DNA from: Chalara sp. BL73
Taxonomy: Eukaryota > Ascomycota > Leotiomycetes > Helotiales
DNA length: 64,000 nucleotides
Direction of reading: 5' to 3'
Assembly (NCBI GenBank): GCA_918026815.1
Contig: CAKJVC010000017.1
Coordinates: 620,001-684,000 of the forward strand
Each line of letters begins with the position of its first letter. The first letter of the stretch is position 1. Shown here piece by piece: positions 316-34,940 of the stretch. The notes below the pieces were generated by a model. That model worked only from the letters and a program-made list of their open reading frames with translations. It was not told the origin of the DNA and ran no database searches. The position numbers and the translations under genes are program-made.

Positions 316-767
316 TTACTCCTTCTTAATGATGAGGGCCGAGGTAGGATACAAGCCAAGCTCAGCGTCCAGATATGCCGCTTCAACAGGTGCATCTTCC
401 TCGCGCTTCGCGATATATAGATTCCCATTCTCATCTTTTTTGATGATCAAAGCCCTGAGAGGGTAGAGGCCATTTTCAGCGTCAACATAGGTGGCATCGA
501 GCGGGGCATCTTCTTCACGCTTTGCGACATAGAGATCGCCATTCTCATTCTTCTTGATGATCAAGGCTGAAATAGGATAAAGACCATTTTCAGGATCAAG
601 GTATGTCGCTTCAGCGGTGGTGTCTACATCTCGCTTGACCTGAGGGCAAATGTTATTCGGGATCAAGTTAGGTTATGACTTGGCCAACGAACATTCATAG
701 GAGCAGCAACAGCCTGCGAGATGAACAAGGCTAGGGCGGCCAGAACAAGCTTTGAGGTGGAAGGCAT
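316..767 (-). CDS. Kex2-repeat secreted peptide precursor (candidate dikaritin-type RiPP precursor)
   Basis: Two exons (767-693 and 639-316) joined across a 53-bp GT-AG intron that contains a CTAAC branch site; product 132 aa. Residues 1-22 form a clear signal peptide (start MPSTSKLVLA, end QAVAA). A Lys-Arg at residues 27-28 is followed by a 38-aa unit three times (29-66, 67-104, 105-132), the third cut short after LIIKKE. Each full unit ends in AKR and holds the invariant blocks GLYP..ALIIKK and ENG.LY.AKR. Signal peptide plus Kex2-delimited tyrosine repeats is the plan of UstA, PhomA and VicA precursors (family knowledge). The neighbouring DUF3328 protein and P450 support that reading. The exact core peptide is not obvious; it could also be a Kex2-processed repeat protein of another role. 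The upstream ATG at 767 was chosen because it alone supplies a signal peptide. Confidence 0.8.
319..630 (-). repeat. 114-bp tandem coding repeat (2 full copies plus one of 84 bp)
   Basis: Units at 630-517, 516-403 and 402-319 within the precursor gene. Each encodes one 38-aa Kex2-bounded peptide unit. Differences are concentrated in the segment just after Lys-Arg and at the two residues after GLYP, while the ALIIKK and ENG.LY blocks hardly change. Confidence 0.85.
640..692 (-). other. Intron of the peptide precursor gene
   Basis: Begins GTTCGT and ends CCTCAG, with CCTAACTTG as branch site. It is in phase 0, directly between the signal peptide plus MN and the first VKR. Without it the signal-peptide frame stops at once. 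Confidence 0.75.
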
Positions 768-1721
768 ATTGTGCAGTGATTTTCAGGCTCAGTTATTAAT
801 AGCTTTAGTAAATGAATGAAGAATTATCTTGAAAACTGAGAGAGCCTAACGCGAACTGATGGCTGTATTTGTACTTGGAACCTACTTAACCCCACCCACT
901 CTATTCTCGCTGTCAGTCCTCCGTAGTAGTATTGAAACGGTTTTTGCACACACGCTATGTCCTCGTTGAGGGGCGGTGTCGAATCAGGCAGGTCAAACGA
1001 GTATGGCGTATATTGTGATCTTTCTAACGGTTGAGTAGATCTATGTGATCACCTTGTTTTGAACCCCGATTGGCTGTAAATGTGATGGGACACAATCGCC
1101 GAAACAAGGCACCGATCAGAACAGCAAATGCTAGATGGCTGTTGAAACAAGGGATTAGCGTTTTTAGTACGAGGCTGCAGTAAGTGACTATTGCTGACCG
1201 CGCCATACTTCCCCCATCGCAGCCTTTTAATACCCTAGCTTAGTCTTTAGCTAGATTCCCTAGTAGAAATGTACTCGAAGGAGTGAGGAGCTTCAAGATG
1301 ATTATGCACCGACATTACGCAACCCTTCCTCTTAAAGAAGGTTCTACATACTCGTGAATAAAGTTGGCGACAAACAGTGACATCGCCTTGTTTAAAGCAC
1401 GACTGCGGCGTACTCGCACTACTAAGAGTGCCTCACAACCACTTGCTGAATTATAAAAATTCGGCTTAAAGCACGATTGCGGCGTACGAAGTAGGCTCGA
1501 TAATATGATTCCTCGCTTAACTTACTTTGTCCAGCTTCCATATCAGGATCTTGGCGCCACATGATACAATGATATTGACCAGATTTTGATGATCTTTGTC
1601 AGAGTTAGCAAATATTTGACCATCTCTTTCACTTTTCTATCAGATAAATTTCGACATCTTGAAGGTTTCTCGCTCATCTATGCCTTGAGATGCGGAATAT
1701 TGCCTAGAAAATCCACGATAA
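768..1721. promoter_or_regulatory. Divergent intergenic region between precursor and DUF3328 gene
   Basis: About 950 bp separate the divergently transcribed precursor (minus) and DUF3328 gene (plus), so it must carry both promoters. Two short copies of a motif reading aaagcacga..gcggcgta occur near 1397 and 1469. No coding sequence is seen. Confidence 0.4.
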
Positions 1722-2802
1722 ATGAAAAACAGCGTTGAAATGCGATCACCAGATTCAAACTGGCGCTCTTCAGATCTCGAGGATGATGAGACCAGAGGAT
1801 TTTTACAAGAAAAGAGATCAATACGATACCAGGAGCCAAAAATTTCGCCCTTAAAACAGCCATGGGTGTTGTTCATCATATTCTCTAACATTACCTTATT
1901 CATCACCAGTGTTGCTCTTTTTGGCACCTGGCTCTACCATCAATACTTCCTCATCAACCCAGACTTGCGTCGTGTGACAAGTTATAGTGCGCCTATCCCA
2001 AGACATACACCCAAGATAAATGAGAGAGCTGACATGTTCAATCAGGCCCCATCATTGACATGGTGGATCTCGAGCTCAAAGTTGAGAAAATCAATGGCAC
2101 GCTTTTCCCACACCCTGATGGTTCCATCGCGCGAAAGATGCCGAACAATGCATCGGATGCGATCTGGGCTGAGTATGAACTCACCAGGGTTATTCCAGTA
2201 ACGGCGAATGATCTGAGAAAAATGGGAGCAGACATCGAAATAGCCGTCAAACTAGAGGATGACATTTGGGGCCTTGGCGACGATGCATATGCCGCGATTT
2301 TTGATGTCTACCACCAACTGCACTGTATAAATGCGTTACGGAGAATAGCCTACGCGGACTACTACAGTTCGCCTATACCAGATGCGACTCACGAGACGTT
2401 GAGAGAGATCCACGTCAATCACTGTATCGACATACTACTGCAAGGAATACAGTGCAGTGGTAACGTGAATCTGATTCCTTTGACATGGCGACAGACGCAG
2501 TTACGGCCTTTCCCTGAGATGTAAGTGATGCTTGTTTGGCGTGCTAAACGAGGTTGGCTTACGATATATTAATCAGGTCCATCAACCGGAAGTGTATCAA
2601 TTTTGACAAGTTGACCGAGTTTCGGAAGGAGAAGTCGATCGACATGGATAAGTACTCGGATGTCTACAACAACACAAGGCCACCAAACGTGGTGCAAGGC
2701 CCGCCAATTTACGGTTTTGCTGAACACTTTGGAGAAGGCGCCGTTAGGCAATGGAACGCAAAAAACCCAGGTCGTAATGCGTCATGGGTAAAAGATAGCT
2801 AG
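1722..2802 (+). CDS. DUF3328 / UstYa-family oxidase-like protein
   Basis: Three exons (1722-1986, 2046-2520, 2577-2802), 321 aa. A transmembrane helix lies at about residues 47-70. The first intron joins to give SYSPIIDMVDL, the usual block after the membrane segment, followed by KINGTLFPHPDG and WGLGDDAY. The two family hallmark motifs HxxHC are both present: HQLHC at about 178-182 and HVNHC at about 211-215. UstYa-type proteins catalyse oxidative cyclisation of peptide cores, notably at tyrosine, in ustiloxin, asperipin, phomopsin and victorin pathways (family knowledge). Its place next to a Kex2-repeat precursor makes cyclisation of that peptide the likely role (inference). The start at 1722 precedes the helix; the ATG at 1740 is an alternative. 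Intron 1 uses donor GTGCGC with branch GCTGAC; intron 2 uses GTAAGT. Confidence 0.88.
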
Positions 2803-3408
2803 AAAAAGAAATAAAATAATTAATATGCGTAGCACATAAGAGGCACAGCATCGTATGGTCCTTCGGCTGATCAACCATTGGGCACCAGTACTGTAATGTT
2901 TCATTCAAGTGTTCTGTCTGGTTTCTTAGCTGAACTGTATCTAGTCCCGGTCTTTCACGGTAGGATATTACCAGGAATAAAAGAATTAGAACGATATTTA
3001 CAAGAAACACATTCACGTTGCTTACCATTTTTATTGCACTTGGTGTTAGTGGGGTCGTTCCTGAGGCGAGCAGAATGTGGCCAGGACATACCTGAACTGG
3101 AGGCTGGGCCATGACCTTTTTCTTAAGCACATCCTGTCATCTTTTGGGGGCCATATCCCGAAAGTTCACAGGCCCGGTACTTTAGACACTCCATCCAATC
3201 AGTTGCCACCAGGACTGCCGAGCTGGATTCGCCTAGGGTGCTTTTCTAACAGCATGTTTCAAACAAGGGTCCGCTGATTACGGCACAGCCCAACAGCTTA
3301 TTGTATGGGATACCTTGGCCTTGTTGGAATGACAGAAGATGATCAGGCTCCAAGCTCTACAATTACTGAAGCGGAGAAGAAAAAGTATCTTGCTCCTCGG
3401 ATGAGAAA
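2803..3408. other. Intergenic region with a possible DUF3328 fragment
   Basis: No intact gene. On the minus strand around 2876-3060 a frame encodes a strong hydrophobic helix, a short hydrophilic stalk and the string TLQYWCPMVDQ. That order recalls the N-terminal part of DUF3328 proteins (helix, stalk, Y-S/C-P-hydrophobic-hydrophobic-D). No HxxHC motif follows, so this is at most a remnant. Confidence 0.25.
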
Positions 3409-5293
3409 ATGGTAGCTTTCCATTCCATCGCCGCCTTCAATGAGGTGACAAACAAGGATATAGTGACTATCATTTGTACTTCGGTAGGTCTCTCTGTACC
3501 ACACAAACTGCTCGGTGCCTTTCCTCACAAGCCTTTTCTTACTCTAACTTACGATCCAGATATTCGTGTATGCAGTAAGCAGATGCGTCTATCTTTTGCG
3601 CTTCCATCCCCTCTCCAGATTTCCGGGACCGCAAATAGCAGCCGTGTCAAATATTTGGTACGGCTACCACTGGCAAGTAGATCCATCCGTATTAAAAGTT
3701 TCTGGAAGAGGCATCATATGCTCATCGTCATTTAGGCTTTCGGGGCGGTATCCATGGGCGATTGAGAATGCCCTCAGCAAGTATGGGGATGTCGTACGCA
3801 TTGCGCCCAACGAGCTTGTCTTTCTGACGCCACAGGCTACACTTGGTGAGTGGTCTAAGAAAAGTCTAATACTGAGGGGCCGCTAATCCATGGAGTAATT
3901 AAGACATTTATTCCTCGCACCAGAAAGGTAATGGGGCGTTCCTTAAAACGGACTTCAACAATCGCGGAAAAGATCTTGGTGGCATTGTTTGGGAGGAAGA
4001 TCCAGTCCGGCACCGAAAGGTCGCGAAGAAAGTCGCTCCAGCATTTAGCAAACGGTCAATCAGAGCCATGGAGCCTTTGGTCCACCAGTATGTGGACACT
4101 TTTGTGGAGAGAATGAGACAGCTGGGCGAGGCAGCTGATGGTGTTGGGCTCGTTGAGTGGACCACTTGGTTGGCCATGGACTTATCGGCAGATCTCTCCT
4201 GGAATGATAAGATGCACGAGATGAGAGACAGTAAGCTGTTCCTTGGATTATTCCTCACGGGATCTGGAGACTAATACCTTGATCTTACAGTGAAAAACTC
4301 CACCCAGCTCGAAGTTGTCCTTGGTTTCAACGTACTTACTACTGTCATACAAGTCTTCAAGCGCTTTCCCTTGATCAAACCAATCCAATATCTTTTCGTT
4401 CCTTTCGGCAAACTTAAATCTCTCGCTGAAGCAGAGAAGACCACTCGCTTAAACATACAAAAGCGTGTAGACAGAAGGAACGATTTAGAGCACTCCGATT
4501 TCTTCGAGTATCTTGTTCCTGCCGATAGCCCACTCCCACAAGACCCACGAGACTTCACTCATCTAGGCTCAGTGTCATTACAACTTATGTTTGCGGGATT
4601 TGGTCCCATGTCGGATTGGTTCTATGCTACGTTAATTCACCTGCTAGAGGAGGCTGAATCTTATAAGCATCTGACTGAGGAAATCAGAAATGCTTTCACG
4701 AGCTATAATGACATTACCTCTGGGAGCTTGGCATCCCTCCCATACTTGCATGCATGCCTAGAGGAATCACTCCGAGTGTTTCCAAGTAACTCTACTGGGC
4801 TACCACGTCTCAGTCCTGGTGCGGTTGTCGATGGTCATTATGTTCCTAAAGGGGTAAGAGCATCTCCTTATGACCACATGTCATTTTTCCTCCTACTATA
4901 CAAGTAGTCGGTCGATCACTTCCACTAAGTTTGTCATGACAGACTCACGTGCAAACAAGCATGTTTGCCTTTGGACGAAGTCCGCGGTACTTTCACGAGC
5001 CGCTCGAGTACCGGCCGCAACGTTGGCTCGCATCAAGCCATCCGCTTTGTGATTCGAAATATGCGAAAGATGATCTCAAGGGTCAATATCCCTTCAGCAT
5101 AGGTCCGAGACACTGCTTGGGCAAAGAGCTGGCGTGGATAGAAGGGATGCTGTTTTTGGCCAAAGTTCTTTGGATGTTCGACGTGAAAAAGGTGCCGGGG
5201 CAGCAGGTCAGCTTGGGAAATACGCCGCGCCACTTTGGGTTTTGGATCAAGCCTGAGCTCAAGGTACGGTTTGTGCCGGTGCAGAGAGAATAG
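3409..5293 (+). CDS. Cytochrome P450 monooxygenase (six exons)
   Basis: Exons 3409-3483, 3560-3672, 3736-3845, 3904-4230, 4291-4853 and 4943-5293 give 512 aa with no internal stop. An N-terminal membrane segment leads into the proline hinge FHPLSRFPGP. Further marks are SGRYPWAIE, NELVFLTPQ, KTDFNNRGKDLGG, the ExxR motif (ESLR, about 367-370) and the heme loop FSIGPRHCLG with ligand Cys about 454. Intron 2 is of GC-AG type (GCAAGT...TTTAG); only that choice restores the frame, giving YGYHWLSGRYPW. At about 310-315 the I-helix reads AGFGPMSD where most P450s have AGx(D/E)T, so the usual acid/alcohol pair is absent. Position beside the precursor and DUF3328 gene suggests tailoring of the same peptide (inference). 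Confidence 0.87.
3673..3735 (+). other. GC-AG intron in the P450 gene
   Basis: 63-bp intron beginning GCAAGT and ending TTTAG. All GT donors nearby are in the wrong phase. Splitting a TGG codon at GC restores the conserved block HWLSGRYPW. Confidence 0.75.
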
Positions 5294-15963: not shown

Positions 15964-17723
15964 CTATGCAAGTCCAAGAAGTTCATTCAGCTTTATATCA
16001 GCCCTCCGTACTTCCTCAACCATGGTCTCCTTCGTTCTGCGTGGCACAAATTTGAGCTTAAATGGTTTCGTTCTAAGCATCACAGAACATGAGAAGCCTT
16101 TTTCGATATCGGTGTGTAGCGTCTCGCCTGGTAGGATATCAAACGCCCATAGAACCTGTGCAAATGCAAGCCTGATGCTCAACAAGGCAAAGTCTTTGCC
16201 AGGACACTCTCTCCTACCTGAACCGAACCCATATACCACTTTTCGGCCAACCTGCGAGACTCCCTTCTTGGCGCCAAACGGATCCTTGATGAAGCGGTCC
16301 GGGTTATATCCTTCCGGCTGATCGTAAAATTCGGGATCATGATTAATGGCCCAGTGGTTGAGAATAACCATAGTGCCTTTTGGTATATGCATTCCTAATA
16401 TTTCCTCATCATGCTCAGTCTCACGAGGCAAGTTAAAAGCTGATGCAGGACGCCACCGGATGGATTCATTCACACAAGCTGTCAGATACGGTAGTTTCTC
16501 AAGATCAATCTTCTCTGGAATGGCTTTGTCGCCCCAAACTCTGTCAAGCTCGGCCTGGGCCTTACGCTGGGCTTCCGGATGAGTTGCTAATGATAGGAGT
16601 ATAGTATTTACCGAAACTACTGAGGAGTCTACAGCAGCATCACTATGGGTTTTGTAAGTATATTAATTTAAAAATTCCAGTCAAGTTTTTACAAAAAGGA
16701 GAAAGAGAAACTACAGGATTTATCAGAAAGGGGTACATACAGGATACCGCCCATCATAAATTCAATATCTTTTTCTGAGAATCGTCCATCCTCCGGGAAT
16801 GTCGGATCCTCGGCCTGGCGGAGTAATTTGGGAATAAGGGACTGAAAATCTCCCCGCCGTTCTTTCTTTGCCTGGGCCATCATGACGCCATACGTACGCA
16901 GCAAGAGTTTGCGCGCAAGTGGCGCCTTGCGCTTCCATTCGGCAAACATGGAAGGCACCCATCGGAGAATAGGAAATATATCAACTGGTGGCGCAGTTCC
17001 AGGATCCAAAAGATCCTCGAACAATACTTGTGAGGCATGGTAATCGTGTATCCAGCTTTTCCCGAACTCCTGGACTGGTGCTCCGCTCAACATTGCAACT
17101 GGTGTTAAGACACTCCTATGGAAAGACATTACTTTGAGAGTCTAGAGGGGGGGCTGCCTCAATATATAAGAGGAAATTTCATACCACTGCGCAATACAAT
17201 CTGCCATCTTTTCATTCCCTGTTTCGAATAGATCAAAGACCAGACGCATCCCTCCAGCTTGCAGCATGGGGGCCAAGTTGGCAAGCCCTGTACCTGAGAA
17301 GAATGGCTTGGATACCGTACGAAACCTCTTGCTGTAATCACTGCGCATGTAAAGACTATGAACGTGTTGTGCTTCTGGCAGGACGTGCTTTTGTGCAACA
17401 TATCTTTGAGGTCGACCGTTAAATGACGCGCCTCGCTTGACGATTAATTCGTACAAGACTAATGCATCGTTTATGAGGATAGCATTAGTTGGTCCGAGTT
17501 TAAGACCAGTAATAGGGCCATACTCCTTTGCCCATTCTTTATATTTTAAAAAGCCCATGGTTTGAGGCATCTGGTGGAGATTTCCTAGGCCAAGAATAGT
17601 AGGAGGCCCTGGAGGAAAGTTCTTTGGACGCCTGGTTGAGTTCAGCCATTTCGCCGTATTGTAAACAATAAGAAGTAGAAGTGGAATGAGGACTGAGACC
17701 GCGAAAGGCGTGTTCAAGGCCAT
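15964..17723 (-). CDS. Cytochrome P450 monooxygenase (three exons)
   Basis: Exons 17723-17185, 17115-16741 and 16642-15964 give 530 aa. An N-terminal helix (VSVLIPLLLLIVYN) is followed by the hinge KNFPPGPP. The I-helix reads LDAAVDSS (about 305-312), with Ser in place of the common Thr. Further marks are the ExxR motif ESIR (364-367), the PERF-like YNPDRF, and the heme loop FGSGRRECPG with Cys about 451. This is the E-class group I layout found in fungal secondary metabolism. Intron 1 (69 bp, a multiple of three) holds an in-frame TAG, so unspliced RNA would be truncated. Substrate unknown; neighbours suggest metabolite tailoring. Confidence 0.9.
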
Positions 17724-19371
17724 GATGTATTCTCTGTCTTCCGAGACAGAGGTACTACTGTTCTGTAAACCCTATGAACCTGGAACCGACCAAGGGGTTT
17801 TCTAGCTTAGATTTTACACCATGACCATCAATATATATAAACCAGGTCTAAACTTTCATTTTTACAAACATAGCGTTTGATCCAGATGACAAAATCATCC
17901 GAGAACATTGTCGGAGGATGAGACTAGAACTCGCAACCCGGTTGTAGCTGAAAGAGTCCGAAACTCTTGATGATCTGATTGTTAAGTCTACGGCCAATTT
18001 GTACATACTGGTTTTTGTTAAAGCGCAGTCCGGAGCCCGATATGTACCGAGCCATCCCATCAGCCTCTACAACCATTAGGGCTATTCGGGGCATTTGAAG
18101 TTGTAAGCGAGATGACACATCAAACCCCCCCCCCCCCCAAAATCGCGGAACTGTATCGTAAGCTATGTGATTTCTTCAATTCCAAAATATCTAGCCTTGT
18201 ATTGTAGCTACATCTTTCTGACATATTTGGACTTCCTGCCCTCATCATCTTGCCCTCATGCCTCAATTTGGCCATTGTACCTAGCGCATTGTTTCCAGGT
18301 TGTCTTCATTTTTGGCTTCATCTTAAAATGAGTCGGTTCAGGAGTCCCCATTTTTGTAGTTAACATGTGAGCATTAAAGCCGTGTGCGGACGGCTTCTTC
18401 GAATTAGATAGTATTTATTTGTCGGCAACCGAAACGTGGTTTAAGAGGCGTTCAGAAACTAGCAAATCTAATAATCTTGCCAATGTACCAATGGCTAAAT
18501 TCAGAAGCCGAATACAAGCTTCTCGTCGATATCGAGTTTACCTGTCAGATCAAAACGTTGAATCAGGCCGAAAGCGGGTGGTTGTTTTGAGTCAAAAGTA
18601 TTGCGACTGTACAGATTTCTAAGAGTATCAATCGTTCTGTTCTCAGTTATTTCACTATACAGTTTTACCAGTTTTAATCTAAAGCCTTCCTTACAACGAT
18701 TCAATTAAGTCACCGATTTTGCGCAAGGCAGCTGGCTGACCTCGAACAAAGCGTGTACGCAAAAGCCAATAATGCAGGAATCAAACACGCTGTGAAATTT
18801 GCTTTGCATGGAGCTATAATCGCTGTCGCTGTACAAGTCAGCCTGTTTCTAATAGACGTTGAAAACAAGCTTACAAATAGCTATAATCGGAATCTGAAGA
18901 TAAGGATAATAAGGATGAAGAAAAAGAACAACTGAGTACCGGCGAAGAAAAGAAATTACGCCTTCATCAAGAGTTGGGCATACAAATTGAAAAATCTGAC
19001 CAGGTTATTGAGCTGGAAACATGTGATAGCGATAATGACGACGACTTTTCAGACATCGACAGCAATATATTTGCCGATATATATATGATTAGAAGAAGAT
19101 CAAGACAGGCCATAACGGTCTTGTGAGGTTATCGCCACACCCTCCTTTATTGACACACATATTAAGTACAGATTGTCTATCTAAGGAATTGGCCGATCTA
19201 GAATCCTGTATCTAACCTCCATTGCTATAGCTCGAGCCACAGTTACGCATTCATAAATGTGATAAATATATGCCTGCATGAACATCGCTTGACTTAATTT
19301 CCTTCTGTTAGTAGCATATCCTTTGGTTGGTAGTTGATGCTCTTCCTGTTCTCCATTTTCCTTATAGTGGA
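17724..19371. other. Intergenic region with possible degraded element
   Basis: 1.65 kb without an intact gene. A run of 14 C lies at 18125-18138. At 18730-19120 two overlapping frames encode first a basic and hydrophobic stretch, then an acidic one rich in Glu and Asp (for example DSDNDDDFSDIDSN). This might be the eroded end of a transposase, but I could not identify it. Confidence 0.35.
18125..18138. repeat. Poly-C run (14 nt)
   Basis: Uninterrupted run of 14 cytosines in the upstream flank of the P450 gene; a length-variable homopolymer. Confidence 0.9.
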
Positions 19372-21173
19372 TCAGACCATGGGGACAGCTGCCGCCTTCT
19401 CCTCAGCAGTTTTCTTGGATTGGTCCGGTAATCTCTTGAAGGGAATTGCAAGGGCAATAACAACAGTAAATGCTGCACCGGCCAATGCAAAGGCGAAGAC
19501 ATCTTTGATTCCGACCATGTAAGCGTCGAGAACAGCGCTCAAATCTGCACCGGTGAAAACTCTATGAAGTTCGCTCGCACCAGTTCCAAGGACCATGCCT
19601 GCATTGATATGCGGAGCATCTTCGGCAAGTGTATGAAGAAGGCGGTTAGCAAAGACGGACTGCGCTGCTGTAACAAAATAGGCACCGCTAATAGAATTAC
19701 ACACTAATTAGGTTAGTTAGATCAATAAGGCTTGTGGAAAACTCTATGACATACTGAGCATGATTCCAGTGGTAGTTTGCACATCTTCAGGTTTAGCAAA
19801 ACTTTGGAGTGCTGTCATTGGAACCTGATTACCAAGGCCAATCCCAATTCCGAAAAGAACTTGAGAGCCAAGGTATCGCGCTTTTGAGGAGTTAACTTCC
19901 AAGGTATATAACAACGCCCCACCAGCCACGACTATCAATCCACTACCGAACTCGAATGGCTGCAGGAAACGTGTTTGCATGATGAGGCCACCACTAAGGA
20001 TAGAGCCCAACGCGAAGAAAGCCATGAATGGAAGGCTGTTAACACCGCTGGTAATTGCAGACTGGCCATGGATTGACTGGAAGTAAATTGGGAGATAAAA
20101 CAGAACTTGAAAGTTGGCGAGGTTGTTGATAAAACCGTACAAAGCGTTTGTATATGTCAGCCGAGGTTTTAGTAAAGCCAATGGAACCATGGCATAATCG
20201 CCAGAAAAGTATTCCGTAATAAAAAAGGCGATTGTCAAGACAATCCACATTACCAATGTGGCGATGACAGCACCGCTGTCCCATGGTTTTGTTTGACCGC
20301 CCCATTGCAGAGCCAAAGTGAAGCAAATTAGCGAAGTAAGTAGCAATGCGAAACCTGGGAAGTCGAGCTGCAATGCGATCTCTTTCCATGTAGCAGGGAA
20401 AGGCTTGATGTGCTTAGGCATCTTGAAGAAAAACACGATCATGGCGAGTACTGGCCCACCAACTGGAAGATTGATCCAAAAGCACCATCGCCAAGTAGTC
20501 TCGCTCGTGAAAGCGCCACCGATTAGAGGGCCGATAATGGTGGAACACATAAAGACACCCATCCAGAGTCCAATCAACATAGGGCGTTTTTTGGGTTCTG
20601 CAACATAATTGATCATGAGTACAGAGCCACCCAAGGAACCAGAACATCCAAACCCCTGAATAGCTCGGCCGACTATCAAGGCTGCGCTGTTTGGTGCCGC
20701 TGCAGCTACGATGCTTCCAATCAAGAACACCACGACAGAGACAAGATAAATAAGATTTCCTGCGAAGTATTTGTATAGCTTGCCCCACGTGGGTGAGGAC
20801 ACCCCCACAAGCAGGAAACAAGCGCTTCCATACCATCCGACATCATCAAGCCTATGAAAGTCATCTGTGATACCAGGTATTGCAGTAGCGACAATTCCCT
20901 ATAAATTGTTAGCTAACAATCCTCCGTTGTAAGTGTCCGGGGACTAACAATATCCAACGCCGCAAGTAGCGTAACCAAGAAAATCGTGGTCATGACCATC
21001 GACAGACGAAACCCTGTCAAATATACGGGCTCTTCGCCAGCATGCTCTGTTGTAATGCCATCTTGTTTCTCTTGTAAGCTATCTGGAGCTGATTTCTCGC
21101 CATTGCTAGTTGAGTCAGGTGTACGATCTGTTTCTGACTTAAGCCCTAACGTAGTTTCCGTTTGTATTGACAT
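19372..21173 (-). CDS. MFS multidrug/toxin exporter (DHA2-like, 14-TM type)
   Basis: Three exons (21173-20949, 20898-19755, 19703-19372), 566 aa. A charged 50-residue N-terminus precedes the first helix. The DHA2 hallmark is complete across intron 1: ALDIGIVATAIPGITDDF, then DVGWYGSACFLL. GRAIQGFGCSGSLGG and TTWRWCFWINLPVGG are further diagnostic blocks. Many hydrophobic segments fit 14 helices. Proteins of this type, such as AflT-like pumps, export mycotoxins and drugs from the plasma membrane (family knowledge). The start ATG at 21173 is the first ATG in frame; both introns (50 and 51 bp) restore conserved sequence. It faces away from the transporter pseudogene to its right. Confidence 0.92.
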
Positions 21174-21941
21174 GATTAAGGTGGGTTTTCTGGGGTTGAA
21201 GGTATTAACGTTTGCTGGACAATTCAAAGAAGCAATCGATGTGGCTGCTTAGTTTTTCCTGTCGGGAAATTGTTAGGAAAGAGGAATTCAGGGTCGTTAG
21301 AAGAAAACCTACCCGTATTCACTCTTGGAAGCTGGAATGTAGGAAAGAAATTGAATCGTCGCAGCACTTACATACTACCAGAGGCTAAACGCTATGACTA
21401 TTATAGAGAGAAAGGCCCTATATAACAAAGGTACCAGCAACCGGGACAAGATTAAGCCAAATTGTGATTGCAAATCATGGAACGAAACACTCTGAAAAGT
21501 CCATGCCAATCTCGGGCAATAGCAAGAAAAAGTCCATGGTTTGGACGTAATACCGCCCCTTGACATCGGGTATCTACATATTGGATAATGGGATAGGCAG
21601 TATCCGCACTTTTCAGAACTCCGAAAAGAGTGTTGCGACATGCCACGGACTTTTCAGTTGTCCGATCACGTGTCCTGAGGCTTAACGAACAGGACGTTGA
21701 ACTATGGACCTGGCGGAAATCATCGCCCCTAAATGGCGGGCACCGCCGAAAGTCTATGCATTGGATCTTGGCACCTGAAAGCTGAAAGGACAGCAATATG
21801 TACTTGTATTCAGCAGATGCAGGAGACACAAAAGTGAGTAGAGCTGAATTCTTTCGGACTAGGTTTAGCACCCTCAGGCCAGTCTACGGTAAAACGCTTA
21901 ATCTCTTTACACCTTTGAAGACTTAAATAGGAGGCACTATA
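21174..21941. promoter_or_regulatory. Upstream region of the MFS gene
   Basis: About 770 bp between the exporter and the transporter pseudogene. A short frame on the minus strand has no motif. A CACGTG-like core (gatcacgtgtcc) lies near 21665. The string aaaagtccatg occurs twice (near 21496 and 21528). Confidence 0.35.
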
Positions 21942-23010
21942 CATGTATTCAGGCTTGCTTGTCGTGCACTCTTCGGCATCGTTACGGGTGGCTTTTATGG
22001 TAACGTTGTTGCTACTCCCCCGAAGATTGTCCTCCCGCAGCTCGAGGTCTTATTCCCGGCATGCCTCAAGGAAACTACTCTTTTGGCTATCCCCTCGCTA
22101 CTGTGTTCTCAGGAGCGTTTGTAGACCCAACATCTCACATCTGGCCGCCTCTGTTTTGGTTTGGGGCTTGTCCACCTGTCCTCAATCATCTTATTCAGAA
22201 TGTCTCTTCCTGAGACGGATGCCTATACTGAAAGAGGACAAGTTCGAAGGCTGGCTATCTCAGCAGCTAGTACATTTATTACAGAATCTAGGATTGCAAT
22301 TAACTAGCACTGGATTCTGTTCATCTGCTTTGTCATGCTTATATAGCTGGTATCAGCTCGGTTGTAAGTAGCCGTGCCCAAGTCAAGAGAACTATGACTC
22401 AATGTAAATAGCCGCATGGAACACAGATCTCTACCTAACACCCTTGATCAATTAATTTAGTTTCTTCTTAAATGATGTTACGGTTACCCAAGCTATTGTA
22501 AATATTGGTGCTAAGGCTGGTGGCGGTACTGTCGGCTATCACTCCCAACTTTTTTGTCGGCGATTTAGCATCGTCACTGCTTGTAAAATGGAGGGGCTTT
22601 AATCTACTCCTGCAGCTTGACTTCTTCAAAAGCCATCATTACAGATGCATTATTTCTCCAATTTTTTGTCCTGGGAGCCTTGGTGTCATTCCCATCCATC
22701 TGATGGAATTATGACTAGGCACGGTCCACGCTTTCTGTGCTGGTACCGCCAATCGGCTTGAAAACCTCGCACCAAGTACCAGTACCACAATCGAAGCTGT
22801 CATTGAAAAGCGTTTCCCGCTATTACCAACTCCTAAGGGGAAGAAGAGATATGACTACTGCATCTTTGTTTATATGTTCACTGCGTGTAGTTTGATGTAT
22901 GCCATCATACTATTGCTGGACCTGAGGAAATTGGACAGAGAATGAACAAGGCTTCCGATCCCAGCGCCGTGGAGGCTTTGGGCCTTGAAGATATTGGGAA
23001 GAAAACAGCA
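21942..23010 (+). pseudogene. Degenerate JEN-type carboxylate transporter
   Basis: Conserved JEN/lactate-permease blocks are readable, but they jump between the three forward frames. In order these are ACRALFGIVTGGFYGN (near 21960), FGYPLATVFSGAFVDPTSH (near 22090), WPPLFWFGACPPVL (near 22145), MSLPETDAY (near 22202), NIGAKAGGGTVGYHSQ (near 22510), GVIPIHLMEL (near 22685), KRFPLLPTPKGKKRYDY (near 22810) and MNKASDPSAVEALG (near 22943). The N-terminal third of the family is missing. Stops fall inside several blocks, for example after ITESRIAIN and after ACKMEG. JEN transporters import lactate, pyruvate and related acids across the plasma membrane. The copy is clearly dead. Confidence 0.82.
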
Positions 23011-24367
23011 TGCAATCACTTGAGGATGCTGGTCTTGTGGGAGACATCCAGAATAACAAAGTTTTCACACTTGTAGTTCATCTCACCGTCCCCAAGATTA
23101 ATACCTGGTACTAAAAGATTCTGTATTCCTGTCTATGGTTGAGTGAGTTATGATGGAAGTTTAGGATCAATAGAAGTTAACAGAATATATATTAGCCCAA
23201 AGCTTATTTGGAAAGTTCATGTCGTCCTTGGATACTGTAAATATTGGGCCTTGAAAAATATTGAACAATTAAATATTTTTCTGGAGTAGCAATTCTTGAC
23301 GTAGTCACCCATTTGATGATCTATTGTTATACTCATTCCATCACATCGATATGGCTTACTATATGATCGTAGGGAATGCATGGAAAGACGCAGGTTTCCT
23401 GCATAAGTTGTTGTGCATCACGGCTATCGATAAAATATCATTCCTAAGCATAGATAAAAGAAAATAAGGTGTTCGAAGTAAAAGGGGAAAGGTTCCGAAG
23501 AATTTATGGTCAGATTTAAGCAATGCTTACAACCTTTATCTTGGTAGCACTAATGCTGTTTAAGTTATCAATCAAATGCAGTAGGCCGTCGAACTTCAAA
23601 GTCAATACTGGTTCAGTCGTGAATATAATTGTAATAGATAAGTTCACTATTTCTGCCAGACAATTCCGTATAAATACCGCAACTGAAACTTCAACACTGG
23701 GCCAGTGTTCTGAACCAAACCCAGTTCCTCATAGGGATCTGTTTTTCACATACAGCAATTGCGTAATTGCATCCTTTGCAATACATTCTAACATATCAAC
23801 AGGGTTTTCGAGCACGAGTCGCTGTTCCAGACATGAACAGAAAGTTCAAGAAAATTTCACTATTAAAACCCGGCGAATCAAGCAAGGGCGGCTAAGCCTG
23901 ACTTCGCGGGGCAAGTCGCACTCGCCAAGCCCCGAAGGAAATGCGGAGCAACCTCAAAAGTCACTTTATTACCTCTTCACATTGCTACAAAAAAAAGGCA
24001 AGTTGTTGATTACAATTGCGCCTAAAAAGCTGAGGCGGTTCTAATGCAGTTCTTGTAGTGAAAACTACATCCATAAAGCCAATTTTCTGTGGTTTATGTA
24101 AAAAAAAAAAAACCTATGGAAGGAAAGGTATGCAGCCGTCGAAAGGTACGCAAGTATCATATTGGCCCCTGCATCTTGGCTCGTACGTTGTTGATGATCC
24201 TAAATAGCCGGGAGCTTTTGCACCTAACGCACGATGCGAATATGATTTACTGACTGAGAGTTTACTTGAAATGACATCAACTAGATAAGTATTAAACAAG
24301 GGGTTCAAGCTCTTTTTGAAGACTACATTTCCCTAGTTGCGTTCTATACAGAAGGTGATCCTCTAGT
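23011..24367. other. Intergenic region
   Basis: 1.36 kb between two pseudogenes. A 173-codon frame at 23523-24044 has no recognisable domain, biased content and no splice partners, so I do not call it. A/T homopolymers occur near 24099. Confidence 0.4.
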
Positions 24368-25593
24368 ATGCCGTGTTTTATGCTTCTTCTTGCCTGTGCG
24401 GCAATATGCCAAAGCCGCCGCCTGTGGAATAATACTGGCCGAGGTTCGATAATCTTTGAGGAAGCTGTCAGCTTGGACTATCCAGAGCTTGGTCAAACGA
24501 TGTAAACACAACCGAGTGCGCACTTCGATGTAAGAAAATGGACTAATTTCGAAGATAGGGCCGCACCAATTCTTGGTATGAATCAAGACACTCGATCTAC
24601 CATTTCTTTACGAACACCTGCTGCAGTTACCGTATTGCTCTGTATTTCCCCAAGCTGACTTTTTTGGAGGCCAAACATATAACGATTTACTCGTGAACCT
24701 CAAGGATGTGCATAACCAGCGTCTGAAGTGGATGGATGAGACAGGGGTGGACTATATGATTTTGTCACTTAACTCCCCTGGCGTACAAGGGATTTCTGAC
24801 CCTACGGCTGCCGAGAGCATTGCAACAAGAGCCAATAATGACATTGCAAATTTGATAGCCAATAATACAATGCGATTTGGTGCATGGGCGGCATTATCGA
24901 TGCACAATGCCACCCAAGCCTCAATCGAGTTGCGACGCGCTGTTAAGAAGCTTGGTTTCTTCGGAGCGATGATCAATGATTATCAGCAATCAGGACCCGA
25001 CAATAGTACGTAGTCGATTTAAAGAAAATAATACGAATATGGACTGATATTAAAAGCAACCCTTCTCTATCTCGATTCGCCACAGTATGACATCTTCTGG
25101 GCGACAGCCTCAGAGCTTGGAGTACCTATCTACCTTCATCCTCGTCCCGCCATCTCGCAAAAGTTTGCCTTGGACTGGGGCCATGCAAAGTGGCTATCCC
25201 CAGCGACTTCTGGCGCCTCGATGAAAGTGAGTTCTTCATAGTCTTTTTAGCTAAACAATCTTTACATCAGTATTCTCAACTTCGGATTAACAAGCGAGCT
25301 GACACGTCATAAAAGTGCTCGCAAGGAAAAAACCTCAAGGCATGCCTATGAAACGCAAATTGTCAGACTACTGGAAAACAAATATATACGAGACGACGAC
25401 GGGTAATTTCTGGACTCCGCTCCTCGACTTTCATCGCAATCTCCTAGGTACTGACAGAATCTTGTACTCCGTCGACTACCCGTTCGTCATGATGCAACAA
25501 GGTCAGGAATGGCTGGATACCTTGCCATATAGCAACTTTTCCAAATTACAATTGATTCGTGGAAATGCCATTCGCTTACTCGGTCTGGACTAA
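24368..25593 (+). pseudogene. Amidohydrolase_2 family decarboxylase, internally deleted
   Basis: A possible signal peptide (MPCFMLLLACAAI) is followed by IIFEEAVSLDYPELGQ, the usual start of the mature enzyme. Then come DVHNQRLKWMDETGVDYM, SPGVQGISDP, RFGAWAALSMHNATQA and FFGAMINDYQQSGPDN. A 60-bp-class intron restores LLYLDSPQYDIFW and VPIYLHPRP. After GASMK the family should have about 70 residues including the metal-binding GHLGE block; here the text passes straight to a stretch ending in TAA and then, in another frame, to KKPQGMPMKRKLSDYW, VDYPFVMM and the family's end ALRLLGLD-like. The link from the first exon to the second could not be made in phase either. The family decarboxylates aromatic acids with a metal ion; this copy cannot. 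Confidence 0.8.
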
Positions 25594-26105
25594 TTAACTA
25601 TGGTTGGCTAATCTCTGCGGGTAAGGGATGTATTTAGAAGGCAAAAGCAGCGCCTGATTGAAGTGCGAAGTCCATGATCATGATTCACTGTCGCGGGCGC
25701 TCTCACTTATACGTAATTCAGCTATGGATTAACTGCCTATCAGAACTTGTGTATTTGAACATCTTAAAAGAAGGTTTGCCGATTATTGTTCATAAATTCT
25801 TATATCTATTCAATCATTATTCAATAAATCGTTCGTCCTACTTAAAACAGGTTACGAAGCGGAAAGTTCATCGAAAGTAACCTAATCGTGTTTCATTAAC
25901 AAGCCACTAGTGGCTGGAGGAATTAAGTGACTATTTTTGGCCAGTTGTGCTGACATATTAGGAATAAGGGGTGATGGCATATTAATAATGGTTGCCGACA
26001 TATTAATAATAAAGGAAGGAGCCACTCAATTACTGCAACCACTATGCGTGCGAGAGTAGCAAGCTTACGAACTATATACAACTTATATATCCATAGACTG
26101 TGAAG
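25594..26105. other. Intergenic region
   Basis: About 510 bp holding the promoter of the SDR gene. Imperfect repeats of a phrase like tgacatattaataat lie near 25950-26010. No coding sequence seen. Confidence 0.4.
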
Positions 26106-27101
26106 ATGGTCTCCCTTCAAACAGTACAACAATCAAATGCCCGCATAGCCACACTTCCAAAAGGTCTCGTTGCGCTATTTATTGGCGCTACATCAGGGAT
26201 CGGACAAGCTGCACTTAAACAATTCGTTCAGAATGTCACCGCTGCACGCATATATAGCGTCGCCCGTCAGTCTGCGGTCGCCTCCCATGAGAATACTTTA
26301 GCTTCTTTACGCCAAAAAAATCCGTCCGGAACCTACAATCTCATCACTGCCGATGTTTCCCTCATTGCAGAAGTTGATAGAGTGGTCGAAATTGTTAAGC
26401 AGAAGGAAACCAAACTAGACCTGCTCTTCATGTCACCCGGTTTCATGGCCTTTGAAGGCCGCAAAGACACTAGCGAGGGTCTTGAGCCTTCGATGACCAC
26501 ACGATACTACTCGAGACAGCGTGCTGTTGAGCAACTTCTCCCATTGCTCAATAGCGATTCTACTGTGAGCCCGCGCATTATCTCAGTATTGGCCGCCGGT
26601 ATGGAAGGACCGCTCAAGGAAGACGATCTAGACCTAAAGGACCCAACCAACTGGCATTTCTGGAACGCATCTGTACATGCGGCCACCATGTCTACGCTGG
26701 CTTTGGAGTATATTTCAAGAGAAAATCCACGCCTTAGCATAACACACTGGCTTCCCGGCGCCGTCGCTACACCAGGTTTGGCCATAGCTAATAAGTTTGG
26801 CATTAACCCTCCAAATCCAGTGAGCGAGGAGTTTGCCGGTGCGTACGCTGTGTTTCTGGCTACCAATGATCGGTATGCCGTTCATCCGGGTGGCCTTGTA
26901 CCCGTTCCTGAGGGATTAGAGGCCTTAAGGAGGTCAGGTGGGGGTATATTTCTTGTCGGTAAGGAAGGAGAAAGTACTGGTGATGAGCAGCTGTTAGGGG
27001 ACTTCAGGAATCGCCGTGTTGATGAGGCGGTTTGGAAATTCACACAAAAGGTTTTTAACGATTACGCTGCAAAATCGAGTACTAAGAAGGAGGGGCTGTA
27101 A
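26106..27101 (+). CDS. Short-chain dehydrogenase/reductase (SDR), intronless
   Basis: 331 aa from the ATG at 26106; the preceding GTG is not a likely start. The Rossmann nucleotide loop GATSGIGQ sits at about 27-34, followed by an ADVS acidic site and the strand LDLLFMSPGFM in the position of NNAG. The usual catalytic YxxxK is replaced by a region reading NASVHAATMSTLALEY, then HWLPGAVATPG. This lack is shared by a fungal SDR subgroup in secondary-metabolite clusters (family knowledge, from memory). Expected: NAD(P)-dependent oxidoreductase of unknown substrate. It converges on the questin-oxidase-like gene and may belong with it. Confidence 0.87.
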   Translation: MVSLQTVQQSNARIATLPKGLVALFIGATSGIGQAALKQFVQNVTAARIYSVARQSAVASHENTLASLRQKNPSGTYNLITADVSLIAEVDRVVEIVKQKETKLDLLFMSPGFMAFEGRKDTSEGLEPSMTTRYYSRQRAVEQLLPLLNSDSTVSPRIISVLAAGMEGPLKEDDLDLKDPTNWHFWNASVHAATMSTLALEYISRENPRLSITHWLPGAVATPGLAIANKFGINPPNPVSEEFAGAYAVFLATNDRYAVHPGGLVPVPEGLEALRRSGGGIFLVGKEGESTGDEQLLGDFRNRRVDEAVWKFTQKVFNDYAAKSSTKKEGL

Positions 27102-27668
27102 GAGTCCTTAGTATTGCATTACCAATTGTACCCGGTGTCACCAATATAGAACAGATATGAGAGCTTTTGTTGCTTAACATATGACAATAAGCCAATTATG
27201 TCAGTATTTTCGCTCAATAATATTAATTAAAGTGAGAGGAATCAATGATATTAGAAACGGGATCGTCCTTCTACATGCGCACACTCCACCGTCCACCTAA
27301 TGCTACGCTGTACGAACCTTACTAGATTTCCTCCCTCTCGGCTGTCATCATTTGCCGCATAATAATTTGCCAAGCCGACAGATAAATAGTGTTTAAATCC
27401 CATCTATGGAACTTCGGCCTTTTCGGATATCCAATAGATTAATAAGCTACGAACCCCCCTGTCTTAAATAGTTCTGGACTTCCTTGGCTATCTTGAAGTC
27501 GATAGCTCACTTGATATTTAGGGTCTCTAGTGGGTCCCAATACAGATATTAATCATGGGGAAGTTGAGTCTCAAGAGTTACCTATCTGTTGCACATTATG
27601 CCCGCACAGGACTTATTCGAATGAGCATGAAGAACAAAATTACATTGGTACATCCTATGTTGCTTTCC
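27102..27668. other. Convergent intergenic region
   Basis: 567 bp between the ends of the SDR and questin-oxidase-like genes. AT-rich in 27170-27240. The forward frame at 27530-27871 runs antisense into the neighbour and has no motif. Confidence 0.45.
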
Positions 27669-29081
27669 CTAAGCTGTTAGTCCTGTTGATTCCAATCTAC
27701 TGGAAACGATTCCCGCTGTCCATGATTTCACATCCGGAATGTTCCCCCACGCCATATCATATCCAGCTCCCCAGACCCATTTCTTCGATAATGTGTTTGG
27801 ATCTTCATCAACGACCTTCGCGGTTGAATCGTAGCAAACCTGGGCGATCTTTAAGTACAAGTCACCCTTAACAGGAAAATATGACGCGCCTTCACCCTGC
27901 TCAAATGGCCGCGTAACATCTTGAGCATTTTTCAGAGACCGAATATACTTCACAACATGGCCATCGTCAGTCACATTGTTTGCAGCTTTGTACAGCGCAC
28001 GCCAATCCATGCCACTACTAAGAGTCGGTTCATACTCAAGCAGATCTTGAATACGCAATTCAGCAGAACCGTTCGCGGCATACCACACGAGGTCGAGACG
28101 ACCCTTCCACTCTAACAAGCGCACCTTATCCTCAACCTTGATCCAAGTTTGCCGCAGCAACACATCTACAGCGATGGAGCAAGTGACGATGTGCAAATAG
28201 AAGAAGTCGATCTTGAATGTCTTGCCAGGCTTTTGTGCTGCAGCGGTAAACGCCGCACAACTCATCATCTCGGCAGTACCACGCTTAAGATCCTCAGGCT
28301 TGACCTGGAACTGTGCTGCAACAGCGACCAATTCATCTATTCCACGAGCCAGCACCATTTTCCCGCGGTTGGGTCCATCTTGTAATTTGGCAGATGCCCT
28401 TATCTTCTCGTTGGCTCGTACCTCAGCGTACAACTCGATCAGGGGCTTAGGTTTCACGGAACCTGAGCGAGCCAACTGCTCACTACGCTGGAAAAACTCA
28501 TCAATCTGTCCTGGATCATGCGAGGCCGCCTGCGCGAGACTCTCAGCAATGATACTAGGCTGGTCAAACTCGAGAGCGAAACCCAGATGGATTAGAGGAT
28601 GGTAAAGACCTTCATATAGCTGTGCCAGCATTTGCTCAGCCAGTGGCGTGTGGCTGAAAAGATACTCTTCCGTCACTGCTTTTGAGCCCTTGGCTTCGAT
28701 TTCCTGCTCGAAGAACGCCAGAAAGTTGGGGTACTCAGGCAGCTCAAGCATTCTCGCCTTGAATTTCTCTGGATCACTCAGGCCTTTAACGACTTTGGGG
28801 TCTACTGGAGGCAACGGCCTTTGGAGCCCCTCTGCATCCGTATATGCTCTATTTAGCTCCTTGGGGCCGCCGCCCATCGCCAGGACTGTGAGAATAGAGT
28901 GTGGGATATGATTATGGCCGGCAACATTTCGAAAATACATGTGAAACTTTTCATGGTTCTTTTGCAGCAGTTCGTTTGCCAATTCGAGGCATCCCGATGG
29001 GTTTAGATCGAGCCGAGCTAAGCCCAGATTCTCTGGGGACAGATGAACCTGGGAAGCCTTTAATGCCGCTATAGATCCCAT
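27669..29081 (-). CDS. Questin-oxidase-like protein (DUF4243, AflY-type)
   Basis: Single exon, 470 aa. Family marks: an N-terminal helical region with HEKFHMYFRN and NHIPHSILTVLAMGG, then LYHPLIHLGFALEF with SIIAESLAQAA. A second half follows with YLHIVTCSIAVDVLL. The family includes fungal enzymes that perform Baeyer-Villiger-type cleavage of anthraquinones such as questin, and AflY of aflatoxin clusters (family knowledge). Length and uninterrupted frame indicate an intact gene. No polyketide synthase is present in the window, so the substrate may be made elsewhere. Confidence 0.88.
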   Translation of the reverse strand: MGSIAALKASQVHLSPENLGLARLDLNPSGCLELANELLQKNHEKFHMYFRNVAGHNHIPHSILTVLAMGGGPKELNRAYTDAEGLQRPLPPVDPKVVKGLSDPEKFKARMLELPEYPNFLAFFEQEIEAKGSKAVTEEYLFSHTPLAEQMLAQLYEGLYHPLIHLGFALEFDQPSIIAESLAQAASHDPGQIDEFFQRSEQLARSGSVKPKPLIELYAEVRANEKIRASAKLQDGPNRGKMVLARGIDELVAVAAQFQVKPEDLKRGTAEMMSCAAFTAAAQKPGKTFKIDFFYLHIVTCSIAVDVLLRQTWIKVEDKVRLLEWKGRLDLVWYAANGSAELRIQDLLEYEPTLSSGMDWRALYKAANNVTDDGHVVKYIRSLKNAQDVTRPFEQGEGASYFPVKGDLYLKIAQVCYDSTAKVVDEDPNTLSKKWVWGAGYDMAWGNIPDVKSWTAGIVSSRLESTGLTA

Positions 29082-29927
29082 GGTTATTTTGCGGAGTGGA
29101 TATTTGGTAAGGTGTCAAGTAAAATCGCGGAGACAAGTTATTTGATATGGTAAATGCTCATTCCTTTCCATGAGGAAACGGCCACTAAGTATAGATCAAG
29201 CTCCAGCAACATCATGTACTTAATGCATATCAAATGGCATAGCAATTCCGTAATAATCGGACATTTTCGTTGCAGATTGTTTCGAAAATTGCACCGCTAT
29301 TCCGAATTTTTTGGGATGATGGTCCGATCTAAAAGCTCTTAGTACGATATGCCCCGACCCGATTTTTGTAGCATGATATGTTCCGATGCGGTCACCGCTC
29401 TGGCCACTCAGTTTGACACCGTGATATGACAACTTGAGCTTCGATTATGCAGTACATAAGCAGCTGAGCGCTATATTCTGCCCGCAGTTTACCTAGTTTA
29501 GATGTTCGTGAAGTTAGTCTCGGATCTTTTGGATCACCATCGGACAATTTGTGTTGCCCGCATGATCCTATTAACTAACAGCGCGATTCGAAAAATTATC
29601 AAGGTCTGTTATCTCTAGACTGCAGGTCTTCACGATCGATACCTGAACATCATGGCAAGCACGAAGCTGTCAATTACGTGAACAGCTGCAAAAGAGAAAG
29701 GCTCTCAAAAGTAACGTCATTAAGCAAGTATTCCTCCTAGTAAATTATATGGTCAGTAGGAGAGCAATACATGCATAAAACAAAAAAAAAAAACGAGCCT
29801 CGTTCTAAGCATGCAATTGAAAAAGGGTCGGTCAGAATAAATACCATCGATCGACTCGCTAAAAGTGTGATATATCATTTCGCTAAAAATTCAAAATCTA
29901 GTCTATTGAGTCTACTCTCGAGATCTG
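29082..29927. other. Intergenic region
   Basis: About 850 bp upstream of the questin-oxidase-like gene and downstream of the regulator gene. AT-rich near 29760-29900 with an A12 run at 29782-29793. No supported coding sequence. Confidence 0.4.
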
Positions 29928-34200: not shown

Positions 34201-34940
34201 TGTATGTTTCACATGTAAAATCGCCTTGATATTGCATTAGATATTGTGCATCAAGGCTATGGTCATGAGTAGCGGCCTTTTGAGGGGTTTCGTAACTTTT
34301 GTGGTATGGCTAGTTACAACTCAGGTGCTCTCATTTAGTGAAGTATGCACGGTGAATATAAGTCACTCACTATTGTGCTCGATGTATGAAGTCGAGTTTT
34401 GGGATATCTATATGCAGAGACATTGTTATCCATGGTGAGTACTTGCACGGGTCCACGCCATGTGTACCTTTATCTTTTATGCGGGGGTACTCCGAACAGG
34501 TCCTTCACTCTCTTCCTTCCTGTTATTTGAGGTGAATCGAAAAACCATGGGGCACTAGATCGGTCAGTTTATGTCAGCTCAATGTACCGAGCTCGGAATT
34601 CTTACAACTGCCCGAAAATTCTCCGCCATGGCGTCGCACAGAGGTGTGCCCGAATTCGGGAATCGCGACTCGCAATACCACGAATTCCCGGTTACAGTTA
34701 TACGCATGTATCCGCAAAGAAAGTTTGTAAGGCGTTAAAGAGCGCTCAGGTTATGCGTCAAGAGACATATCAAATGATTAAAACTGGCTTTGTACCTCCT
34801 AGGTCAACCTAAGGTTCCGGATATAAAACCAACTACCCAAGTACATCAAACGTCACATATCATTGAAATCTCAGCCACGTCTACCAAATCAACGCTAATC
34901 GCATTTATTTCACGTGTACCGGCCTCATTTAACAGGCAAA
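31269..34940. other. 3.7-kb gene-poor stretch
   Basis: No gene can be supported. Short frames at 31484-31699, 32223-32411, 33554-33796 and 34244-34438 lack motifs, splice partners and a consistent strand. The stretch right of the regulator holds its promoter. I cannot exclude eroded genes or old transposon pieces. Confidence 0.45.

Follow-up and report, generated by a model that had tools for sequence, protein, structure and literature searches.

Kex2-processed repeat proteins (KEPs) and genes of the UstYa/DUF3328 family are known to occur as neighbors. According to a survey of KEPs, a DUF3328 gene lies near 1,758 of 7,878 of these proteins (22%), with the count peaking at the very next gene, and tyrosine is present in 65.6% of the repeats of those KEPs that have such a neighbor (PMC7329392). 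Under a broad definition, the DUF3328 protein is the class-defining enzyme of the dikaritins, which are ribosomally synthesized and post-translationally modified peptides (RiPPs); the five-gene definition attributed to Ding et al. in the same source comprises a tyrosinase, multiple DUF3328 genes, a methyltransferase, an S41 peptidase, and a transporter (PMC12048977). The described cores are short, those of ustiloxin and phomopsin being tetrapeptides (PMC7329392) and those of the epichloecyclins nonapeptides (PMC9233826). Here, we analyze a stretch of 64,000 nucleotides from Chalara sp. BL73, referred to as the window (C14:620001-684000 in an assembly of 58.66 Mb and 199 contigs), which carries a precursor gene, a UstYa/DUF3328 gene, and a cytochrome P450 gene. 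By analogy with described systems, we consider it probable that the precursor/UstYa pair, together with the nearby P450, makes a tyrosine-cross-linked peptide from secreted, Kex2-cut repeats. The original prediction for this DNA had named a signal-peptide precursor with three Kex2-bounded tyrosine repeats, a DUF3328 protein with both HxxHC motifs, and a P450, all within 5 kb, and the analysis bears out each of the three.

Results

The precursor gene and its repeats

The following features of the precursor gene were identified:

316..767, minus strand: precursor gene, 132 aa, CDS complement(316..639,693..767), intron 640-692 (spliced in frame; donor GTTCGT, branch-like site CTAAC, acceptor CCTCAG)
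693..767, minus strand: precursor exon 1 with the signal-peptide-like N-terminus MPSTSKLVLAALALFISQAVAAPMN, judged by eye
320..661, minus strand: three adjoining 114-nt repeat units (320-433, 434-547, 548-661), from a repeat search
553..612, minus strand: precursor core copy 1, EATYLDPENGLYPISALIIK, kept in the homologue P0001
439..498, minus strand: precursor core copy 2, DATYVDAENGLYPLRALIIK, aligned with P0001
325..384, minus strand: precursor core copy 3, EAAYLDAELGLYPTSALIIK, aligned with P0001

The predicted protein consists of a hydrophobic start, a VKR site, and three repeats at 38-residue spacing. Among the donors tried for the 53-nt intron, three (746, 710, and 692) give an in-frame protein, and we chose donor 692 because it is the only one that retains the entire signal-peptide-like start. 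The protein thus modeled has the features that define KEPs, namely a signal-peptide-like start (by eye) and repeats split by KR, KK, or RR sites. Pairwise identity between the 20-residue cores is 0.65-0.80 at the first, 0.85-0.95 at the second, and 0.40-0.50 at the third codon position, which is the pattern expected for selected coding repeats. Judged by this pattern, the repeats are under reading-frame selection and are old copies held alike at the protein level. These data bear directly on the possibility that the locus is decaying or silent. There are only three copies, they have diverged, one of them carries ELG in place of ENG, and a tyrosinase, an S41 peptidase, and a second UstYa gene were not found alongside. 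However, the reading frames of all three genes are open and the repeats have kept their protein sequence while third positions drifted, so that we regard decay or silence as very improbable.

A single precursor homologue was found in the protein collection at E <= 0.001, P0001 (E 6.9e-17), a protein of 126 aa from a 983-bp contig; the search admitted only proteins of 0.55-1.75 times the query length, and longer relatives with more repeats could escape it. P0001 holds three copies of LYVD[PA]ENGLYPLRAL[IA][IV]K[EA]KR, and the part common to P0001 and the window units is Y-[VL]-D-[PA]-E-[NL]-G-L-Y-P-x-x-A-L-[IA]-[IV]-K. The original prediction had assumed two core motifs per repeat and an ENG.LY.AKR stretch in each of the three repeats. 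Neither assumption held: the stretch occurs only twice in the window precursor, and we dropped the model of two cores per repeat, as its second half is missing from P0001, which keeps the first motif only. Because P0001 lacks ENG.LY.AKR, this stretch is best read as a spacer ending in a KR (Kex2) site, with one core per repeat. Because both precursors keep this part, we take [TAL]-Y-[VL]-D-[PA]-E-[NL]-G-L-Y-P-x-x-A-L-[IA]-[IV] as the likely core; the two tyrosines in it are conserved in three of three window copies and three of three P0001 copies.

The statement that the repeat core is not a recognized one is supported: P0001 is the only homologue found in the protein collection, four core words were not found in 5.39 million open papers, and shorter ones were not found in the main texts of two KEP surveys, whose supplements may list the core type. 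At E <= 1, no second precursor copy was found in the Chalara genome itself. Using P0001 as the query, we obtained no further relatives from viral_contigs or genome_contigs, both of which are poor places to look for fungi. No such precursor from Bisporella sp. PMI_857 surfaced in the protein collection, although relatives of UstYa and of the P450 from this organism are present there, showing that such precursors are easily overlooked.

The UstYa/DUF3328 gene

Divergent from the precursor gene, and 954 bp away from it, lies the only UstYa gene of the locus:

1722..2802, plus strand: UstYa/DUF3328 gene, 321 aa, join(1722..1986,2046..2520,2577..2802), with HQLHC and HVNHC motifs and one N-terminal transmembrane-like helix (by eye); profile match, spliced model

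The exon-2 frame alone matches PF11807 with E 5.5e-32. The first intron could begin at several donors, of which we used the one consistent with a protein of Bisporella sp. PMI_857 (Helotiales). This protein, itself a predicted one, is the best relative (307 of 315 residues identical, 97%) and is continuous across the exon junctions of our model. The next two relatives, from Xylariales sp. PMI_506 (58%) and Xylariaceae sp. FL0804 (53%), are far less similar. When 39 of the at least 120 relatives listed were aligned with the window exon-2 frame, no variation was seen at the H, H, and C positions of either HxxHC motif across the 40 sequences. An AlphaFold model of the exon-2 frame (2033-2524) reached a mean predicted local distance difference test score (pLDDT) of 84.8. 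The predicted fold has no PDB match at E <= 0.001 (best E 2.4) and the sequence none at E <= 1, and since matches are lacking on both counts, the model adds no mechanism. The locus combines what broadly characterizes a UstYa-type RiPP or dikaritin system, i.e., a DUF3328 protein with two HxxHC motifs and, nearby, a precursor with Kex2-bounded repeats and a signal peptide recognized by eye.

Further precursor/UstYa pairs in the genome

The genome contains 89 matches to the UstYa exon. The nearest paralogue of the window gene, at C86:33606-34482, shows 55% identity in the main exon and 35% in the first exon, and a near-copy of this paralogue is found on C60 (59% over part). Beside both, and divergent from them, stands a precursor in which the EAVYDNPKTATLPY repeat occurs four times, closing with KK or KR in three copies and with KH in the last. 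The EAVYDNPKTATLPY core is followed by GLNELVKK or xxNSLEAK[RH], and a 56-nt intron interrupts the gene at its first VKR, very close to where the window precursor has its own intron. Around the precursor, the C86 (L016:4590-7204) and C60 (L024:495-3114) stretches match perfectly for 2,261 bp, and the two pairs were counted as one for this reason. On C60, the UstYa copy seems to be interrupted. A likeness of the window core to the EAVYDNPKTATLPY core is suggestive only: four of eight unit comparisons stood at 4-30 of 1000 shuffles and the other four at 176-409 of 1000.

To place the pair among its kind, we scanned for repeats in 20 UstYa regions (7-10 kb each, together 195 kb; some are neighbors on one contig) and used as a control 88 kb that were not randomly drawn, consisting of the window from 6001 onward and the 30 kb to its left. 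A strict scan for repeat open reading frames (ORFs) with dibasic sites gave hits in 5 of the 20 UstYa regions and in none of the control. A loose scan, which was defined after the strict one and had 14 of the 20 regions as its initial test set, gave 9 of 20 and again none in the control; the nine include two duplicate-contig pairs (L017/L018 and L016/L024) and two doubtful regions (L015 and L033). Kex2-repeat precursors seen near other UstYa genes carry TNIYPSVSFLGDPEAEKVKR seven times plus a variant (L025:7302-7985), PSWYYDKKR (L031:3100-3501), ATYxLSDGE/ATYILSDEE (L032:6741-7037), and EPAASWAAAKR (L017:6672-7064). Based on the survey counts given above and the repeat ORFs near other UstYa genes, the window pair belongs to a well-known and very diverse kind, the Kex2-processed repeat protein with a UstYa neighbor.

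The repeat protein could instead yield linear, secreted, pheromone-like signal peptides, with the UstYa neighbor acting elsewhere. Such a function would agree with the 6,120 of 7,878 KEPs that have no DUF3328 neighbor, among which those of Saccharomycetes are described as probably linear; in the same account, however, pheromone-type precursors lack a DUF3328 neighbor with three exceptions (PMC7329392). Here, precursor and UstYa genes are arranged head to head, the arrangement recurs with a UstYa paralogue, and the two tyrosines are kept in all window and P0001 cores, all of which makes linear peptides an unlikely outcome in our view.

The P450 gene and the divergent promoter

3409..5293, plus strand: cytochrome P450 (PF00067), 512 aa, six exons, join(3409..3483,3560..3672,3736..3845,3904..4230,4291..4853,4943..5293), probable cluster member
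768..1721, no strand: shared 954-bp divergent promoter region with four AAACAAGG sites (1052, 1102, 1145, 1386) and a 22-nt direct repeat

The P450 gene starts 606 bp past the UstYa gene on the same strand. It is intact, with a frame that is open throughout and five introns of 58-89 nt, one of which has a GC-AG border. Ten relatives, picked from at least 120 listed, align along the protein. The best match, from Bisporella sp. PMI_857, is only partially modeled, with the GC-AG intron read as coding sequence, and 375 of its 432 aligned residues are identical. P450s usually carry the I-helix motif [AG]Gx[DE]T[TS]. This motif is absent from the window P450, which reads AGFGPMSDW, and from the ten aligned relatives, eight of which have AG[YFW]G[PS]M[SAG]D and the others AEFGPVSD (P0127) and AGYEPPVM (P0178).

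The 8-mer AAACAAGG occurs nine times in the window compared to 2.5 expected copies, a number reached in 0 of 100 shuffles. Six of the nine copies fall at 1052-3457, i.e., four in the precursor-UstYa interval, one in the UstYa-P450 interval (3261), and one in the first P450 exon (3450). None is present in the 30 kb to the left of the window, and the 195 kb of UstYa regions hold nine. In shuffles of the two intergenic stretches, an 8-mer repeated at least five times appeared in 2 of 2000 cases. An 8-mer repeated as often also turned up in ordinary stretches of this genome (20 of 635, overlapping ones), and AAACAAGG was picked after seeing the sequence; because of the former, we hold AAACAAGG as a candidate shared regulatory motif that is a lead only. 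The same promoter region contains the 22-nt direct repeat TTAAAGCACGA[CT]TGCGGCGTAC at 1392-1413 and 1466-1487 (21 of 22 positions alike).

The P450 is a probable cluster member. The alternative, to which we give somewhat less than an even chance, is a RiPP module of two genes only, those for precursor and UstYa, with an unrelated P450 next to it. In line with this alternative, no P450 of this family stands beside the paralogous C86 pair among the matches listed (the best 84 of 234 candidates scored), and by eye none is evident among the L016 ORFs of 110 aa or more. Relatives of the window P450 are widespread, and in the 12 other named species with relatives of both proteins, the two are on contigs that are never equal in size (by eye, from two listings of at least 120, in which the UstYa relatives are not necessarily orthologues). 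The P450 is also more diverged than UstYa with respect to Bisporella (87% versus 97%), a P450 figure that is lowered by a badly predicted stretch (5/19). On the other hand, the P450 gene is just 606 bp off and on the same strand, AAACAAGG lies on both sides of its start, and, by eye, the UstYa and P450 relatives of Bisporella sp. PMI_857 are both on contigs of 901,201 bp.

Surroundings and limits of the cluster

The original prediction placed the candidate cluster at the window edge and took it to be cut there on the left. We rejected this truncation, as the contig continues and its next 30 kb contain nothing of a RiPP pathway in family searches and in a Pfam scan covering 22 of the 43 ORFs of 110 aa or more. 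The nearest Pfam match in this flank is a DUF3632 protein, followed at a distance of at least 11 kb by a DNA-repair metallo-beta-lactamase, a GNAT/bromodomain protein, and Rad1, which are housekeeping neighbors; a P450 and a GMC oxidoreductase are 26-30 kb away. The remainder of the 22 scanned ORFs gave nothing above the Pfam cut-off. To the right of the P450 lie a 5'-nucleotidase gene and a HET-domain gene.

Within C14:590001-684000, there is one UstYa gene and no second, and the absence of a tyrosinase and an S41 peptidase, already noted in the original prediction, extends to this whole interval. For tyrosinase (PF00264), the best candidates were scored, and the nearest match on the contig is at C14:828645, more than 200 kb off; for the S41 peptidase (PF03572), the sole genome match at E <= 0.001 is on C82. 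The asperipin-2a locus is not known to have a tyrosinase. The 22 scanned ORFs of the left flank include no methyltransferase, for which no whole-genome search was made, and no transporter; one methyltransferase gene is located about 30 kb to the right (34899-35873) and an MFS gene about 14 kb off (19747-20898), both in another gene group. As only one UstYa gene was found and neither tyrosinase nor S41 peptidase was matched, the locus, by its gene content, falls outside the five-gene definition, whereas its protein with two HxxHC motifs brings it within the broader DUF3328 definition. The earlier label of a dikaritin-like RiPP locus stands in this broader sense and not in the narrower one. The accompanying claim that precursor, DUF3328 protein, and P450 form the core of the ustiloxin, phomopsin, asperipin, and victorin pathways was not supported: ustiloxin B is assigned a P450, and asperipin-2a is assigned a reductase (PMC12048977).

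Elsewhere in the window, the stretch 15970-35873 encodes a P450, an MFS transporter, a short-chain dehydrogenase, a questin-oxidase-like protein, an AflR-like regulator, and a methyltransferase, and resembles an anthraquinone/xanthone-type tailoring cluster. The gene at 60260-61636 is GWT1, an ordinary housekeeping gene.

Discussion

Proposed pathway

Based on the gene set, we propose that the precursor would be routed into the secretory pathway, where a Kex2-type protease in the Golgi would cleave it at the KR and KK sites. This would release tyrosine-bearing peptides of about 20 residues, from which general secretory proteases would trim the spacer. By analogy with ustiloxin and asperipin-2a (PMC7329392; PMC9233826), the UstYa protein would then oxidatively cross-link the core at a tyrosine side chain, for which the hydrophobic residues after the two core tyrosines are possible partners, and the nearby P450 would likely add a further oxidation. 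We infer splicing, secretion, Kex2 cutting, spacer trimming, cross-linking, and the role of the P450 alike from the sequence. Because tyrosinase, S41 peptidase, and a second UstYa gene were not found at the locus, the system would be a minimal, asperipin-like one that uses a single UstYa protein and general proteases.

Several observations weigh against a cross-linked product. DUF3328 proteins also serve pathways other than those of RiPPs (PMC12048977), and the P0001 contig, at 983 bp, is too short to reveal any UstYa neighbor. The reaction site in the window core is a guess because the known cores, with four and nine residues, are far shorter. To these points are added the ELG of the third copy, the greater divergence of the P450, the lack of such a P450 among the matches listed beside the C86 pair, and the ordinary genome stretches with equally repeated 8-mers, as described above.

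We further suggest, tentatively and as a possibility that falls clearly short of being the expected case, that the head-to-head two-gene module was duplicated and re-cored in this lineage. UstYa would then cross-link cores of 17-20 residues (Y-x-D-P-E-N-G-L-Y-P, with two tyrosines), longer than the described dikaritin cores, and the resulting peptide would be large or bicyclic and common to this fungus and a second organism. If true, this would enrich a family with few known substrates by a core in which a longer tyrosine motif is conserved. The genome would also offer a natural pair of systems, each with its own core but with UstYa proteins related to each other, for testing how UstYa recognizes its core.

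Comparison with known systems

Ustiloxin and phomopsin share with the window locus the Kex2-repeat precursor and a DUF3328 protein with two HxxHC motifs, and ustiloxin B also involves a P450 (PMC12048977). In contrast to these systems, the 94 kb of C14:590001-684000 contain no match to a tyrosinase, an S41 peptidase, or a second UstYa, and the window core is not of the short Y-x-I kind. The asperipin-2a type of locus is similar in its signal-peptide precursor, Kex2-bounded tyrosine repeats, and single DUF3328 gene (PMC7329392), and asperipin-2a itself has tyrosine cross-links (PMC9233826). It differs in that the window core is longer (about 17-20 residues) and of another sequence, and in that the window locus has a P450 where asperipin-2a has a reductase (PMC12048977). 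The KEPs with a DUF3328 neighbor agree with the window precursor in the signal-peptide-like start, the repeats, the Kex2 sites, and the DUF3328 gene next door (PMC7329392). The window core words, however, do not appear in the main text of that survey, nor does the word P450, and its supplements may list the core type. Finally, the C86/C60 pair of the same genome has a different core, EAVYDNPKTATLPY, and no such P450 among the matches listed there, but resembles the window pair in its UstYa protein (55% over the C86 main exon), its divergent arrangement, the intron at the first VKR, and its tyrosine repeats.

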